Below, piece after piece: positions 31,501 through 38,143 of a DNA stretch of 42,353 bases. Position numbers and translations under genes: made by a program. How positions within the stretch are numbered: the stretch's first letter is position 1; every line of letters begins with the position of its first letter. The stretch is from Nitrospira sp. SB0662_bin_26 (lineage in GTDB: Bacteria > Nitrospirota > Nitrospiria > Nitrospirales > UBA8639), in NCBI GenBank assembly GCA_009840285.1, contig VXOF01000090.1:1-42353 (forward strand), in the 5' to 3' direction. The notes below the pieces were generated by a model. It searched no databases, was not told where the DNA came from, and saw only the letters and a list, made by a program, of their open reading frames with translations.

Positions 31501-32148
31501 TCACCCATATCGATCATTCTCCCACGGTAAGGCGGTGTTGGAATACCCACGCACTTCCCAGAACCCTTTTTGATCTTTTTCCACGAAAGTGATGGTTCTG
31601 ATCCACTTGGCTCCCTTCCAGGCATACCGTTTGGGGATGATCATGCGAACGGGTCCCCCGTGATCTTTGGAAAGCGGTCTGTGATTCCAGGAATGGACAA
31701 GAAAGACATCCTCGTCGTCGCAGACTGAAAGAGGCAAGTTGGTCGTATAGTCGTCATACGACTCGAAGAGCACGTATCTGGCTTCCGGTTTGGGTCGCAC
31801 CAAGCTGAGGAGATGCCGAAAACTCACCCCGACCCATTCCATCTCAAGCTGGCTCCACGAGGTCACGCAATGGAAATCCGACACAAACGGCTGGTGTGGC
31901 TGAGCCTGATAGTCCTCCCAGGTCCACGTGATGGGATGTTCGACCAATCCATCCACGGTGAGCTGCCATTCTTCAAGTGAAACCTGAGGCTTATACCCAA
32001 GGTCCAGCACGGGCCAATTGTTGACGAGATGCTGTCCGGGAGGGACGCGATCATCCTGATGCTCCTCTTCGACCTCACGCCCTGAGATCTCACGGCGGTG
32101 CAGAGCCATTTTTTGTTTGGCTTGAATGGTTTTTTCGTTAAATTCCAT
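31501..32148 (-). CDS. cytosolic sulfite-oxidase-like molybdopterin protein
   Basis: The 215-residue protein contains only the molybdopterin-binding domain. The Mo-ligating Cys94 is in DFHCVTSWSQ, and WVGVSFRHLL, DHGGPVRMIIPKRYAWKGAKW and the TITFVEKDQKGFWEVRGY end all match the family. It has no signal peptide and no dimerisation domain, unlike the exported relative at 21186-22196, and is closest to YuiH-type sulfite-oxidase-like proteins. It starts 44 bp after the VKOR gene. Substrate and redox partner are unknown. Confidence 0.88.
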   Translation of the reverse strand: MEFNEKTIQAKQKMALHRREISGREVEEEHQDDRVPPGQHLVNNWPVLDLGYKPQVSLEEWQLTVDGLVEHPITWTWEDYQAQPHQPFVSDFHCVTSWSQLEMEWVGVSFRHLLSLVRPKPEARYVLFESYDDYTTNLPLSVCDDEDVFLVHSWNHRPLSKDHGGPVRMIIPKRYAWKGAKWIRTITFVEKDQKGFWEVRGYSNTALPWENDRYG

Positions 32149-32192
32149 ATGACGTTTTTCGTTCTCCGTTCATCATATCCGGTGATTCGAGC

Positions 32193-33074
32193 TTACTCTT
32201 TCCAATTGAAACCGGCGGCGCCGGCGAGTGTCCGGGGAGTCTGCAAACCGGTGAACCGTTTGTCGTCGATGATCCAGGTCGGGTAACTGCGAATGTCGTT
32301 TGCCACGCACGGCGGGGTGAGAGGACTGCCGCGTCCCCCGGAACTGCATTCCACGTACGGCAGGCGTTTCGCGGACGCCTTGAACACGGCTTTTTGCTCC
32401 TGGCAACGGGGGCACCAATAGGCTCCATAAAACTTGGCTCCCGTTTCGGTCAGGTGGACGGCCAGCGCCTGAAGCTGCGGATCTTCGGGGCCGGCCGCCT
32501 CGTCGAACACCCCGCTGTAGTGCAGGTGCAGCCCGCCGATGAGAAGCACGGCAACCACGCTCGCCTCCTTCAACGACGTCGCCCAATCGGGGGGGCGCTG
32601 CAGGAGAGTCAGGATCATGATGGCCGTGATGATGCCGAATGAACCGAGGCAGTAGGCGCATGTCGCTTCGATTTCCACGATGGAGATCACGGTCAGGTAG
32701 GCACTGATACCGAATCCGCCGATGGCGACGAATATCAGGGGAGTCCAACTTTTGGGTTTTGTCCTGGCCCGCCACGCCAATGCGGCCATTGCCAGGTAGG
32801 TGAAGAGGCCCCATGTGGCCGTGGGCATTCCCAGAAACGTTGCCCAACGACTGCCTTGAACCAGGTCGCATCCCGACCCCTCGCTACAGAAAGCCGGGTG
32901 TGCTTCAAACAAGGCGGTGTAACTGAGGTACGTCGTCAGCACGATGCCGCAAGCCGCCAGCACTAGGACGATGACCGTGATAGGGCCGCCAGGATTTGAC
33001 GCGCGAGTCCCGGGCGCATGTGAGAGACGTTGTTCGCCACTTGGGGCTTTTCGCCCTTTACGTTGCTTGGCCAT
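32193..33074 (-). CDS. VKOR-thioredoxin fusion (disulfide-forming membrane protein)
   Basis: The 293-residue protein has a basic cytoplasmic N-terminus, then a VKOR-family four-helix bundle with membrane segments at about 31-52, 83-101, 112-134 and 143-158 and a fifth at about 171-186. Cys63 and Cys69 form the loop pair, and Cys139-x-x-Cys142 is the quinone-side active site. A C-terminal thioredoxin-like domain carries CPRC (221-224) with two further Cys (243, 256) and a cis-Pro segment SYPTW. Such fusions act as DsbB plus DsbA in one chain, oxidising exported proteins with quinone. Separate DsbA/DsbB genes are not seen here. First of three co-directional genes. Confidence 0.93.
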   Translation of the reverse strand: MAKQRKGRKAPSGEQRLSHAPGTRASNPGGPITVIVLVLAACGIVLTTYLSYTALFEAHPAFCSEGSGCDLVQGSRWATFLGMPTATWGLFTYLAMAALAWRARTKPKSWTPLIFVAIGGFGISAYLTVISIVEIEATCAYCLGSFGIITAIMILTLLQRPPDWATSLKEASVVAVLLIGGLHLHYSGVFDEAAGPEDPQLQALAVHLTETGAKFYGAYWCPRCQEQKAVFKASAKRLPYVECSSGGRGSPLTPPCVANDIRSYPTWIIDDKRFTGLQTPRTLAGAAGFNWKE

Positions 33075-33180
33075 CGTTACGTCCGCTGCAACAGGAAACC
33101 CGCCATCAAGAGGTCATTCCGATCGCGGTGAAGAGTCATTCATGATACTCGTTGTCGCGCGGAGGACGCAAAGGTTTCTC

Positions 33181-34236
33181 TCACTCCAAAGCAGCAGGCA
33201 GGGCCTTTCCCAGAATCACCCGTAGCACTTTTTCTTTGTGTTGCCGCAGGATGCGAATGCTGACCGGTTGCAAGGGTCGTGTGTGTTCGATCACATATGT
33301 CTTGAGTTGACTGGCCGAGTTAATCGGTTGGTCGTCGATCGACAGCAGGACATCGCCTTTTTTGAATCCCGCCCGTCGTGCCGGTCCCGTTGCCTGCGCT
33401 ACGGCCATGTGCCATCGGTTTTCAAATTTGACGGAGGTGAGTTGTAGCCCGAGTTTCGAAAAGTGAAACGGCTTTCCCTGCTTGAGAGTCGTCACGATTT
33501 TGTTGACCAATGGTCCCGGCACGGCAAAGGCGAACCGGCTGCATCGACGTTCCTCTCGAGAGGTTTCGGTTTGAATGATCGCGTGGACAAGGCCGACGAT
33601 TTCACCCCGGGAATTGAACAACCCTCCGCCGGAATTGCCGCTGCATGCCGACAGGTCGACTTGCAAAAGACGGGATTGTACGGTTTGCAAAAACGTATTG
33701 GGATTGCCGATGTGTCCATAGCTGATTGCAGGACCCCAACCCAGAGGGTAGCCCACGGTGAAAACCCGTTCTCCCGGCAAGGCTTCGGTTTGACTGAACG
33801 TCCGTGCTGCGAGCCCGTGAGGCACCATCTCTTGAGAGATGCGATACAGGGCGACGTCCAAAAATTGATTCACGCCGACTAATGCGGCAGGTGCTTCCTC
33901 CAACGTGCTGGCTATAACGGAAACGTGTGGAGGGTCCGCAGCTGTTCCGGCGCCCTGCCGCTTTGTGGCGTGTCGGGCAGTGAGGACATAGCCGTCTCCC
34001 AGGTAAATTCCCGACCCTCTCACGGAGAAAGCTTTCCCGTCAGGCTGAGTCGATTGAGTGAGAATGCCCACGGTCCCGAGTTTGGCTTGCTCGACAACTT
34101 CGGCGAAGCCTGCCCTGAGCCTGTCCTGAGCCTTGTCGAAGGGCGTCGTCGAAGGGTCGGCTGGGTTGGCCGAAAGTAGCGATGGTATGAGCAGGTACCC
34201 GCCCCAAACCACGCCCATGGCGATTTTTTTCAGCAT
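33181..34236 (-). CDS. exported HtrA/DegP-like serine protease with PDZ domain
   Basis: The ATG at 34236 (MLKKIAMG) follows AAAGG and gives a signal peptide ending near LLSANPA; a frame to 34347 adds residues without likeness. The trypsin-like domain has His89 in LTARHAT, Asp127 in FLDVALYRI and Ser202 in ACSGNSGGGLFN, so the triad is intact. A single PDZ domain (about 255-345) contains GFKKGDVLLSIDDQPI. Total 351 residues. Residues about 33-43 (FDKAQDRLRAG) are encoded by a dispersed repeat inserted in frame just after the signal peptide. Probably a periplasmic quality-control protease. Confidence 0.9.
   Translation of the reverse strand: MLKKIAMGVVWGGYLLIPSLLSANPADPSTTPFDKAQDRLRAGFAEVVEQAKLGTVGILTQSTQPDGKAFSVRGSGIYLGDGYVLTARHATKRQGAGTAADPPHVSVIASTLEEAPAALVGVNQFLDVALYRISQEMVPHGLAARTFSQTEALPGERVFTVGYPLGWGPAISYGHIGNPNTFLQTVQSRLLQVDLSACSGNSGGGLFNSRGEIVGLVHAIIQTETSREERRCSRFAFAVPGPLVNKIVTTLKQGKPFHFSKLGLQLTSVKFENRWHMAVAQATGPARRAGFKKGDVLLSIDDQPINSASQLKTYVIEHTRPLQPVSIRILRQHKEKVLRVILGKALPAALE
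34112..34143. repeat. dispersed repeat inside the HtrA-like coding sequence
   Basis: On the coding strand it contains TTCGACAAGGCTCAGGACAG followed by GCTCAGGGC. This motif is recognisable as a short repeat that recurs in many environmental bacterial genomes. It lies in frame in the linker between signal peptide and protease domain, where an insertion is tolerated. A shorter related CTTCGACGA stretch follows at 34144-34152. Confidence 0.6.
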
Positions 34237-34449
34237 GGTGTGCCTTTTGTAGATGTTTGACCGATTGACCAATGTTTGAGTCAGGAACATGTCCGATGTT
34301 TCCGCCTCTTTCGCCGTCCTATGTTGCCCAGGCATGGGGCAATTCAACAGCCAGCCCTCATCCGGGTATCTTGCATTTCAATGCTATCCTTGAACCATCC
34401 TTTACTCAAGTTCCCGCGTGCTTTGAATGGAATTCCGGTGTACCATAAA

Positions 34450-34591
34450 GGAACCTCTGATTTATTGTGATAGCGGGATGCAGGGCAAGGCGTCCCGGAG
34501 CGAAACCTGAGGCTTATCAGAGAGATAGGTGAGGGTTGAGCGAGGACACAACGCAGTCCTGCGCCCGATAGTGCATTAAATCAGAGGTTCC
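34450..34591. mobile_element. MITE-like element, intact copy 2
   Basis: This 142-bp element has perfect 15-bp terminal inverted repeats GGAACCTCTGATTTA (34450-34464) and the complement (34577-34591). Looser inverted similarity extends some 20 bp further inwards on each side. It is flanked by TAAA on both sides (34446-34449 and 34592-34595), a likely 4-bp target duplication. It encodes no transposase and would need one in trans. A degenerate inverted copy lies at 347-492. The remaining parts of the 34237-34718 gap show no gene. Confidence 0.85.
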
Positions 34592-34718
34592 TAAAGGACG
34601 TTCGGGAGAAGTGTCGGCATAGCCTTCTCTCTGTGGAGTAGAATAAAGAAAGCCTTTTGCAATCGATTGCTCTCTCGTGTGGGGAGAAGGAATTCAGTGA
34701 AGGAAAGGAGCCGCCGTC

Positions 34719-35345
34719 ATGAAAATGTACAAAGTTGTTCTTTTACTCGTGCTGGGAGGAGGGTTGCTCCTCGGCATGAACAGCACGTCGGTTAGTCAAA
34801 CCGCCAAGGGAAATTATGCGACCGCCACGTTTGCCGGAGGGTGTTTCTGGTGTATGGAAGGCCCGTTTGATGAACTCGATGGAGTGATTTCCACGACGTC
34901 GGGGTATACCGGTGGGCAGACGGTCGATCCGACCTACGAAGACGTCTCCGCCGGGGGAACCGGACACGCCGAGGCCGTTCAGATAACGTATGATCCTCAG
35001 AAAATCAGTTATCGCGAGTTATTGGCCGTCTACTGGCCCAATACGGACCCTACGACGCCGGATGCCCAGTTCTGTGATCATGGTGATCAGTATCGCCCCG
35101 CGATCTTTTATCACAATGATGAACAGCGTGCATTGGCGGAAGAAACGAAAAAAGAAATCGAACGCACCAAGACCTTCAGCGCCCCGGTCGTGACGGAAAT
35201 TACCAAGGCCACGGCGTTTTATCCGGCAGAGGAATACCATCAGGATTTTTATATGAAAAACCCCATCCGGTATAAATTCTACCGCTTCACCTGTGGACGC
35301 GACGCACGGTTGGCCGCTTTGTGGGGAGACGGCGGCAAGGCGTAA
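34719..35345 (+). CDS. msrA: peptide-methionine (S)-S-oxide reductase MsrA, exported
   Basis: The 208-residue protein starts with a signal peptide (VVLLLVLGGGLLLG) and is preceded by AAGGAG. Catalytic Cys42 is in FAGGCFWCMEGPF; GYTGG, the GTGHAEAVQITYDP segment and the DAQFCDHGDQYRPAIFYHN segment are all present, with a resolving Cys near the C-terminus in FTCGRD. It repairs S-sulfoxides of methionine in periplasmic proteins, presumably needing an exported thioredoxin-like donor. No msrB is adjacent. The MITE-like element ends 127 bp upstream and could affect its promoter. Confidence 0.96.
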   Translation: MKMYKVVLLLVLGGGLLLGMNSTSVSQTAKGNYATATFAGGCFWCMEGPFDELDGVISTTSGYTGGQTVDPTYEDVSAGGTGHAEAVQITYDPQKISYRELLAVYWPNTDPTTPDAQFCDHGDQYRPAIFYHNDEQRALAEETKKEIERTKTFSAPVVTEITKATAFYPAEEYHQDFYMKNPIRYKFYRFTCGRDARLAALWGDGGKA

Positions 35346-35511: not shown

Positions 35512-35904
35512 ATGGCGATGCGGCTTTCAGGACGACAGATCGGGCTCTTGAAAGAGTACATGCATGATTTGGTCGAACAGGCCAAACAGGAAGAGGCCAC
35601 CACGGCGGCATTCGGGTATTCCTCCAAGCCGTATCGAGCCGATCAGGCTATTTCAGACCTGTTGGCCATCCTGGACGATCGTATTGAATCGGAAGGCGTA
35701 CAAGTTGGATTATCGGTGGAATTTCTTCATCACATGTGGACGTTGTGCAACAAGGCCAACGACCAGGTTCAGGACACGGTCTGGCTCCAACGCAGTTTGG
35801 ATGGAGAGCCGGCGACGAAAGCCAGGGTTCGCGAATTGACGTATCGAGTCTTGCTCGAGTATTTGGAAAGCCTGCCTGAAAACCTGCGGTTGTCTTCCGA
35901 CTGA
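35512..35904 (+). CDS. hypothetical protein, 130 residues, helical
   Basis: I do not recognise the family. The product starts MAMRLSGRQIGLL and is predominantly helical, acidic and soluble, without signal peptide or membrane segments. It contains two helix-rich stretches with regular hydrophobic spacing (about 5-30 and 85-120) and a single Cys. A second ATG two codons on (35518) is an equal start candidate; neither has a clear Shine-Dalgarno. It lies 86 bp before the MutS-like gene on the same strand, so a shared transcript is possible. GC and codon use match the neighbours. Confidence 0.7.
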   Translation: MAMRLSGRQIGLLKEYMHDLVEQAKQEEATTAAFGYSSKPYRADQAISDLLAILDDRIESEGVQVGLSVEFLHHMWTLCNKANDQVQDTVWLQRSLDGEPATKARVRELTYRVLLEYLESLPENLRLSSD

Positions 35905-35990: not shown

Positions 35991-37838
35991 ATGGATCAGA
36001 AACGGCATACACGCGAACGCATGATTGTTCGCGGTCGTGATCGAGGAGCGAGGCTTCTTCTGAAAGGCCGGCGCGTCAGTTTGTTCTTGAGCCGAAGCCG
36101 TATGGGACTGGTGCTGGTCGGGCTTCTGGTTAGTGTTTCGTCGTACAAACTTGGATGGTTCATTGCGGGGAATTGGGCGCTACTGGGATTTTTTCTCTGT
36201 TTTCTCGGTGTGGCGAACGTCCATAACCGTTTGGAACGACGGTTGCGACGCCTTGTCATGTGGATCGACATTCAGGAAAGCAATCTGGCTCGTTTGCGGC
36301 TGGATTGGGAATGCATCCCGGAAACTACGCTGAGTCTATCTTCCGAACATCCGTACGCCGCAGATCTTGATCTCCTCGGGAAATATTCCTTGCTCCGTTT
36401 GCTGGATACGACGGTGTCGCGGGACGGGCAGGCGTTATTGGTCGCTTGGATGACTCGTCAACATCCGCTTTCATTCGATCAATGGGAGAGCCGGCAGAAA
36501 CTCGTCCGGGTCCTGACTTCGTTGAGAGGGTTACGGGACCGGATTCAGCTCGTGGCGCACTGCCTGAGTCCCGATCCGATCAAGACAGATCGCCTGGAGA
36601 GCCTGTTAGAGAATTCCGAGCCTGTGGCTCGATTGGGTTCGCTGTTGCTGGCGGCGAGTACTCTCGCCGCTCTCAATATGGTTCTTTTTGTTTTCTGGTT
36701 GCTCGGTGGGCCGGGGTATTGGATCGTTTCCTTTCTACTCTACGCGTTATTGCTGCTCGTCACCGGAAGGCGGGTGAGTCACGTGTTTGGGCGGGCTCTC
36801 GATTTGCACCTGGAGTTGGACAAGCTTGCCGCGGTGATCGGAATTTTCGAGAAGCGGTCGTATAGACGGTATCCCGCGCTTCAGGCGATGACCGACCCAT
36901 GGCGAAACGAGAACAGTCGCCCCTCGGTCGCCATCAGACAACTTGCGAGAGTTTGCAGCGGGCTCAGTCTGAAAGCGCATCCTCTTTTGCATATTGCCAT
37001 GCACCTCGTGGTCCCGTGGGATCTGGCGTGGACGTGGCATTTGCAGAAAGTCTGCAACCGGTTGCGATCCGTTTTGCCGGATTGGATCGTACGCTTGGCG
37101 ATTGTCGATGCGGCCATGGCATTGGCCACATTTGCTTACTTGAATCCATCCTACGCGTGGCCTCTCAGGCGGCCGGAAGGAAACGCCACGACAATCGGAA
37201 TTTCCGGAACGGCTATCGGCCATCCCTTGCTTGCCTATGAACAACGGATCAGCAATGATTTGATACTGGAAGGCTTGGGCCGTGTCTTCCTGGTTACCGG
37301 CTCCAACATGTCCGGGAAAAGTACGTTTTTACGAACGGTGGGGATCAATGTCTGTCTGGCGCAGGCCGGGGGGCCGGTATGCGCCGCATCCTGGGAATGG
37401 TCGTGGTTGCGGATACAGACCTGCATCAGGGTTGGAGATGCCCTGGAAGAAGGGTTGTCGTACTTTTACGTGGAAGTCAAACGCCTGAAAAATCTGTTGG
37501 TGGCGATGGGCGACCATCGTGAAGCGCCGGTGTTGTTTCTTATCGACGAGATTTTTAAAGGCACCAATAATCGGGAACGATTATTGGGGAGCGAAACATT
37601 CATTCGCGAGTTGACGGCGGGGCGGGGTTTGGGACTCGTCACGACGCACGACCTGGAGTTGGCCAACCTGGATAAGGAATTGGCTCATCTCGCCAACGTG
37701 CACTTTCAGGAAACGTTCGGTGACATGGAACTGACGTTCGACTATCGACTTCGTCCCGGGCCCTGTCCCACGACCAACGCGCTTCGGATCATGGCCATGG
37801 AAGGTTTGCCGGTTCCCGAAACACATTCAGGGCCGTGA
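35991..37838 (+). CDS. membrane-anchored MutS-family ATPase
   Basis: The 615-residue protein has a basic N-terminus, two membrane segments at about 38-56 and 59-77, a MutS-like core region (about 125-210), two more hydrophobic segments at about 216-238 and 242-259, a clamp/lever-like helical region, and a C-terminal MutS ATPase domain. Walker A is TGSNMSGKST (436-445), Walker B is VLFLIDEIFKGTNNRERL, followed by TTHDLELANLD. It lacks the mismatch-recognition domain I with the F-x-E motif. Membrane-spanning MutS relatives exist in several phyla but their role is not established. It is not the mismatch-repair MutS. Confidence 0.88.
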   Translation: MDQKRHTRERMIVRGRDRGARLLLKGRRVSLFLSRSRMGLVLVGLLVSVSSYKLGWFIAGNWALLGFFLCFLGVANVHNRLERRLRRLVMWIDIQESNLARLRLDWECIPETTLSLSSEHPYAADLDLLGKYSLLRLLDTTVSRDGQALLVAWMTRQHPLSFDQWESRQKLVRVLTSLRGLRDRIQLVAHCLSPDPIKTDRLESLLENSEPVARLGSLLLAASTLAALNMVLFVFWLLGGPGYWIVSFLLYALLLLVTGRRVSHVFGRALDLHLELDKLAAVIGIFEKRSYRRYPALQAMTDPWRNENSRPSVAIRQLARVCSGLSLKAHPLLHIAMHLVVPWDLAWTWHLQKVCNRLRSVLPDWIVRLAIVDAAMALATFAYLNPSYAWPLRRPEGNATTIGISGTAIGHPLLAYEQRISNDLILEGLGRVFLVTGSNMSGKSTFLRTVGINVCLAQAGGPVCAASWEWSWLRIQTCIRVGDALEEGLSYFYVEVKRLKNLLVAMGDHREAPVLFLIDEIFKGTNNRERLLGSETFIRELTAGRGLGLVTTHDLELANLDKELAHLANVHFQETFGDMELTFDYRLRPGPCPTTNALRIMAMEGLPVPETHSGP

Positions 37839-37855: not shown

Positions 37856-38143
37856 TCAGGGAATGAATAACGTGGGTTGGTTCTGCTGGTCCTGGTCGAT
37901 CTTTTCGCCTGTCGTCGTTCCGCAGTAAGAACACACGTATTCATATTTGTTGCCGGACGGCAGGACGAGCAAAAGCCGTTCGCGGGCAGGTGTTGCCTCC
38001 CTGCAAGTCGGACAGAATAGAAGCGTGGCGTTGAGCGAACGAAATTGGGCGTTGGGATCGTCTTGAGGCGGGCCGGGTTGGGGGCGTATACCCGGTCGCC
38101 GGGATCCCCCGAAAGAGCGCGGATCAAACGGAATGCGTGCCAT
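37856..38143 (-). CDS. small zinc-ribbon protein
   Basis: The 95-residue protein has a Pro/Gly/Arg-rich N-terminus (about 1-30) and a zinc ribbon formed by CPTC (44-47) and CSYC (71-74). The knuckles are separated by 23 residues of mixed strand character, as in rubredoxin-like or transcription-factor ribbons. The C-terminus is acidic. No family is recognised. It converges with the MutS-like gene (17-bp gap) and lies 93 bp downstream of the helicase gene, possibly in its transcript. A nucleic-acid or protein-binding role is plausible but unproven. Confidence 0.72.
   Translation of the reverse strand: MARIPFDPRSFGGSRRPGIRPQPGPPQDDPNAQFRSLNATLLFCPTCREATPARERLLLVLPSGNKYEYVCSYCGTTTGEKIDQDQQNQPTLFIP

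Follow-up and report, generated by a model that had tools for sequence, protein, structure and literature searches.

A predicted membrane-anchored MutS-family ATPase from a distinct and widespread bacterial clade

What would an ATPase of the MutS family do at a membrane? The question is raised by a gene of Nitrospira sp. SB0662_bin_26 (Nitrospirales; GenBank assembly GCA_009840285.1), found on a 42,353-nucleotide stretch of contig VXOF01000090.1 that is called the window here. Its open reading frame joins a MutS-type ATPase to two pairs of hydrophobic helices (Table 1), and is a real gene, since 45-88% identity is kept in most relatives. RefSeq names these relatives 'MutS family DNA mismatch repair protein'. 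The membrane architecture contradicts the 'DNA mismatch repair' part of this name; no paper on function or membrane architecture was found in a literature search that stopped short of most subscription journals. Our preferred reading, to which we assign a probability of about 0.42 on the strength of sequence comparison and modelling, is that the gene encodes a membrane-anchored ATPase from a MutS-family clade that is distinct, widespread and seemingly uncharacterised, and that this ATPase would have the bilayer or a membrane partner as its target.

Table 1. Features of the gene and of the protein it encodes (nucleotide positions in the window; aa, residues of the protein)
Feature	Position	Strand	Details and basis
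Gene of the predicted membrane-anchored MutS-family ATPase	35991..37838	+	615 aa, ATG start
Long basic helix (aa 3-53), ending in predicted membrane helix 1 (aa 37-53)	35997..36149	+	AlphaFold2, hydropathy
Predicted membrane helix 2 (aa 57-77), extending as a basic cytoplasmic helix to aa 103	36159..36299	+	AlphaFold2 helix 57-103, hydropathy, relatives
N-terminal half of MutS core domain III (aa 125-207)	36363..36611	+	Pfam, profile alignment
Predicted membrane helix 3 (aa 215-237)	36633..36701	+	Hydropathy, relatives, AlphaFold2, charge depletion
Predicted membrane helix 4 (aa 244-262)	36720..36776	+	Hydropathy, relatives, AlphaFold2
Helical lever-like region (aa 263-358)	36777..37064	+	AlphaFold2, fragment model; clamp domain undetected
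C-terminal part of core domain III (aa 362-400)	37074..37190	+	Profile alignment
MutS ATPase, domain V (aa 401-607)	37191..37811	+	PF00488 E 4e-24, profile alignment, structure match
Walker A, GSNMSGKST (aa 437-445)	37299..37325	+	Nearly all residues invariant in 58 relatives
Walker B, LFLIDE (aa 515-520)	37533..37550	+	D519 and E520 invariant in 58 relatives

The protein is a member of the MutS superfamily: domain V scores above the cut-off, Walker A and Walker B are intact, and core domain III is recognized by structure. PF00488, the Pfam model of domain V, matches residues 434-607 (86 bits against a curated cut-off of 30.2) over profile positions 2-173 of 188. A sequence-only reading of the locus had described a complete MutS-type ATPase; this is right for the motifs, but the domain is only nearly complete, since about 15 profile positions are missing at its end. 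In MutS, dimers are helped by this C-terminal part of domain V, which is truncated here. Domain III has diverged, PF05192 giving a weak, sub-threshold match at residues 131-186 (E 0.04); among the 58 relatives the model is found in 48, with a best E of 8e-11. In profile alignments, residues ~130-207 align with the first half of domain III of MutS1, and residues ~351-615 with its second half plus the ATPase, and the family profile also matches the N-terminal half of core domain III inside MutS1 genes.

Domains I, II and IV gave no Pfam match in the protein, nor do they appear in the list of families that the 58 relatives matched most frequently. The absence of the mismatch-recognition domain, remarked upon in the earlier reading, is therefore borne out, and connector domain II and clamp domain IV are undetected as well. 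Calling the protein a clamp, as that reading did, is misleading, since no clamp domain is detectable: PF05190 matched neither the protein nor, among the matches listed for them, the 58 relatives, in a search that a diverged remnant could escape. The Smr domain gave no match either, and the protein stops 8 residues past the ATPase. Within the lever-like region lies a conserved PWD motif (residues 342-344). The best model in the database was NCBIfam MutS1, at 104 bits against a cut-off of 480; another MutS1 model reached 100 against 642, the MutS2 model 64 against 400, and the KamC model 76 over the ATPase only. All of these matches are far under their cut-offs and confined to the C-terminal half.

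The hydrophobic pairs required support beyond the single sequence, whose hydropathy is weak evidence of membrane helices and no better than that of shuffles: of 2000 sequences of the same composition, 761 also yield at least three hydropathy peaks. Both pairs are at the same places in 30 Nitrospirales orthologues, and both recur, down to ~28% identity, in relatives of about ten phyla, including Chloroflexota, KSB1, Bacteroidota, Ignavibacteriota, Acidobacteriota, Myxococcota, Bdellovibrionota and Bacillota. Such recurrence at the same positions argues that the pairs are not due to chance. Across 58 sequences, charged residues are depleted in the membrane helices (D plus E make up 0.5% of helix 3), and both flanks of the first pair are net positive, with a mean of +4.4 each, which by the positive-inside rule places them in the cytoplasm; in the Nitrospira protein, residues 1-36 alone have a net charge of +9. 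Together with the AlphaFold2 helices, these results uphold the two helix pairs that had been read from the sequence, and we regard the protein, by prediction only, as an integral membrane protein with cytoplasmic positive flanks. Conservation rises from 1.1-1.3 bits in the membrane helices to 1.6 in the core and 2.3 in the ATPase. Since the helices combine low conservation with few charged residues inside them, the membrane part fits an anchor or a mechanical element rather than a substrate channel.

Structure modelling, which had been proposed as a check, gave a confident AlphaFold2 model (58 sequences, mean pLDDT 94.1, pTM 0.92) with helices at both hydrophobic pairs. Helices 3-53 and 57-103 are predicted to form a long hairpin with membrane helices 1 and 2 at its tip, and helices 215-237 and 244-269 a second pair. 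Comparison with Foldseek and VIA-align showed that residues ~113-615 resemble MutS domains III and V (8omo, Z 32.8, 401 residues aligned at 3.9 Å; 3zlj, Z 32.1, 416 aligned at 4.1 Å; the MutS2 structure 7vuf, Z 28.3). The remainder, residues 1-112, comprises the membrane hairpin and a linker and had no match to MutS structures in these comparisons. As residues 113-204 and 353-615 amount to 355, at least about 60 residues of the intervening 205-352 must be aligned in 3zlj, and these counts suggest that part of the MutS lever region is probably kept there. When residues 205-352 were predicted alone, a single continuous helix spanned residues 244-288; this fragment retrieved no MutS structures and no clear PDB match, giving only weak helical matches.

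How does this protein relate to other MutS proteins? The genome has three PF00488 genes on three contigs, including the one described here, and the other two correspond to MutS1 and MutS2 in length and in the form of Walker A; MutL is also encoded. In a maximum-likelihood tree of 53 ATPase domains, all of the membrane proteins fall in one clade (100/99), which divides into a four-helix group (90/77) and a Firmicutes/Spirosoma group (99/92). MutS1 (99/98) lies outside this clade, as do MutS2 and KamC, which group together. The phylogeny called for by the earlier reading is thus clear on separation from the groups compared, namely MutS1, MutS2 and KamC. The nearest relative of the clade is unsure, because long branches meet between it and MutS1. 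Papers by Lin in 2007 and Ogata in 2011 are said to treat the MutS3 and MutS5-MutS8 groups, and the clade may sit within the published MutS3-MutS8 scheme.

Almost all of the sampled Nitrospirales carry the gene, the exceptions being one family and a few further genomes, and local synteny around it is conserved in this order. It is absent from most other Nitrospirota sampled, and was found at E below 1e-100 in about 15 of 80 sampled genomes of other Chloroflexota. In GTDB, 587 stretches with short conserved peptide matches encode a relative, although the lower-ranking ones may include other MutS proteins. The gene can be lost, since one sister genome retains both flanking genes but only a remnant of it (codons ~463-480 and ~555-604, at L167:3784-4253). 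Second or partial copies adjoin the full gene elsewhere (locus L044; G142:C10:487839-488117). A link to phages or plasmids appears negligible: a search of 2.9 million viral contigs gave three relatives, and the top matches among plasmid and phage records resemble pieces of chromosome. The record of 'Staphylococcus phage PhiSepi-HH3' (MT880872.1), for example, carries rex, ABC-F, tsaD, rimI, tsaB, tsaE and ilvD and looks like host chromosome, and the S. aureus plasmid NZ_CP077935.1 has the same gene order. PADLOC gave no convincing match, and weak PADLOC and PHROGs matches span only the ATPase. SLATT_1 was matched in a single relative and was not seen in ten others scanned individually.

Neighbouring genes were compared by blastp clustering of the 6-kb flanks of 80 relatives. 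No protein family recurs beside the gene across phyla in this set, and no DNA-repair, recombination or defence neighbours recur, so the neighbourhood analysis suggested earlier yields no partner shared across phyla. In the window, the upstream gene on the same strand (35512-35904) encodes a conserved 130-residue protein of no known family. Within the taxonomic family it is syntenic, with ~55-94% identity in most relatives, and is not an obligate operon partner, because a gene on the opposite strand intervenes in some relatives. A gene for a 95-residue protein with CxxC pairs, a possible zinc ribbon (37856-38143, minus strand), converges on the MutS-like gene and also keeps its synteny in relatives. 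Further upstream, at 31501-35345, lies an envelope redox and quality-control cluster encoding an MsrP-like molybdoprotein, a VKOR protein with a CxxC-bearing C-terminal part, an HtrA-type protease and MsrA. In seven loci of Nitrospira proper, the gene is followed by one for an MFS/acyltransferase/acyl-ligase-like fusion of ~1150 residues, within about 20 nt in several loci and 9 nt in four. Judged by eye, we take this fusion to be Aas/LplT-like, and it is a possible candidate for a lipid-remodelling operon partner in Nitrospira proper. As a general partner it is rejected, being absent from the window and from other phyla.

In the membrane machine that we favour, the N- and C-termini would be in the cytoplasm, with very short loops outside, and two subunits would close on ATP, like other MutS proteins. 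In the fragment model, the lever-like helix (residues 263-288) runs on directly from membrane helix 4, and for this reason we propose that opening and closing of the ATPase pair could pull the second hairpin. What the machine works on would then be the bilayer itself or a membrane partner rather than DNA mismatches. The continuous helix of residues 244-288, the separate clade, the conserved membrane pairs and the conservation gradient are consistent with this model. Its more far-reaching form is possible, but we would not bet on it: lever helices that end in the bilayer and no longer in a DNA clamp, ATP-driven closing that moves the hairpin or a partner, and a branch of about ten phyla that has left nucleic acid. 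We do not claim that the second hairpin simply takes over the clamp's place at the tips of the levers. Against a membrane machine stands the truncated C-terminal end of domain V, and the low conservation of the membrane helices also fits a plain anchor. To our knowledge, moreover, the known relatives of MutS almost all act on nucleic acid or on ribosomes.

The main rival to a membrane machine is a membrane-held binder of nucleic acid, since members of the superfamily usually act on nucleic acids or ribosomes (PMC12292046). Here the core would still grip DNA or RNA with its arms while the hairpins served only to anchor it, for instance in nucleoid anchoring or in the handling of incoming DNA. 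MutS homology itself points this way, as do the basic helices beside the membrane on each side of the first hairpin, membrane helices as weakly conserved as in plain anchors, and the precedent of MutS2, which lacks domains I and II yet binds DNA (PMC12292046). However, the positive-inside rule accounts for the basic stretches, the core and ATPase are without net positive charge, the clamp domain is undetected, and repair or recombination neighbours do not recur. We consider this tethering conceivable but doubtful; the chromosome anchoring put forward from the sequence alone is likewise conceivable. That the protein serves as a translation factor on the membrane side, working on ribosomes like MutS2 and perhaps at the translocon, appears to us clearly unlikely. 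MutS2, a structural relative, rescues ribosomes (PMC12292046), in Staphylococcus the gene is flanked by an ABC-F gene and tsaD, and one Bacteroides gene is near ribosomal protein genes; but there is no Smr domain, the protein falls outside the MutS2 branch of the tree, and neighbourhoods vary between phyla.

A sensor of phages or plasmids would suit the patchy distribution outside Nitrospirales and the loss from a sister genome, and surveillance of conjugative or phage DNA had been thought conceivable from the sequence. Near-universal presence in a bacterial order with conserved local synteny speaks against such roles, as does the scarcity of viral relatives, and neither recurring defence neighbours nor a convincing PADLOC match was found; we judge a sensor very improbable. 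We give even less credence to an accessory mismatch-repair protein fixed at the membrane. The best database model is that of MutS1 and the RefSeq name agrees, but the score is far under the cut-off and domains I and II are missing, the genome has a true MutS1 and MutL, and in one closed chromosome, from Chloroflexota, the gene occurs although no MutL scores above the cut-off. On this point the sequence-only reading, which held that mismatch repair does not explain the protein, is sustained: the mismatch and connector domains are gone, the clamp domain is undetected, and the genome has MutS1, MutS2 and MutL genes at other sites.

If the far-reaching form of the membrane-machine reading is correct, one branch of the superfamily would have given up its work on nucleic acid, and its recruitment to the membrane would parallel that of MutS2 for ribosome rescue. 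With members in the tractable S. aureus and Bacteroides, recruitment of a MutS ATPase to the membrane is directly testable.

Compared with MutS1 and MSH proteins, the membrane protein has the same core domain III, ATPase domain V, Walker A and B motifs and H-loop, and E. coli MutS and human MutSbeta match it with Z 32. It differs in having four predicted membrane helices and no detected domains I, II or IV, in ending before the last part of domain V, and in belonging to a separate clade. MutS2 is likewise a core and ATPase without domains I and II, whereas the membrane protein has no Smr or detected clamp domain, has membrane helices, and groups elsewhere. KamC, the MutS-type reactivase ATPase of lysine 5,6-aminomutase, takes its name from a function other than DNA repair. 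A MutS-like protein as long as KamC, which we take to be KamC, differs in that hydropathy shows no membrane helix in it; in the tree, it sits on a long branch on the side of MutS2. MutS4, also a subfamily apart from MutS1, consists of MutS4A and MutS4B, encoded in tandem by two adjacent, overlapping genes (PMC5742357), in contrast to the single gene here. A Myxococcus MutS-related protein, 3030, listed in a table (PMC12288472), may or may not belong to the membrane clade. The closest comparison is with Firmicutes MutS-family proteins of ~540 residues (S. aureus WP_000106330.1, S. epidermidis and a Listeria-associated record), which share the clade, the second hairpin and the ATPase, but have one N-terminal membrane helix in place of a hairpin and form the sister branch. 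Since the S. aureus member, with three predicted membrane helices, has this one N-terminal helix plus a hairpin, the second hairpin is the feature common to the clade.
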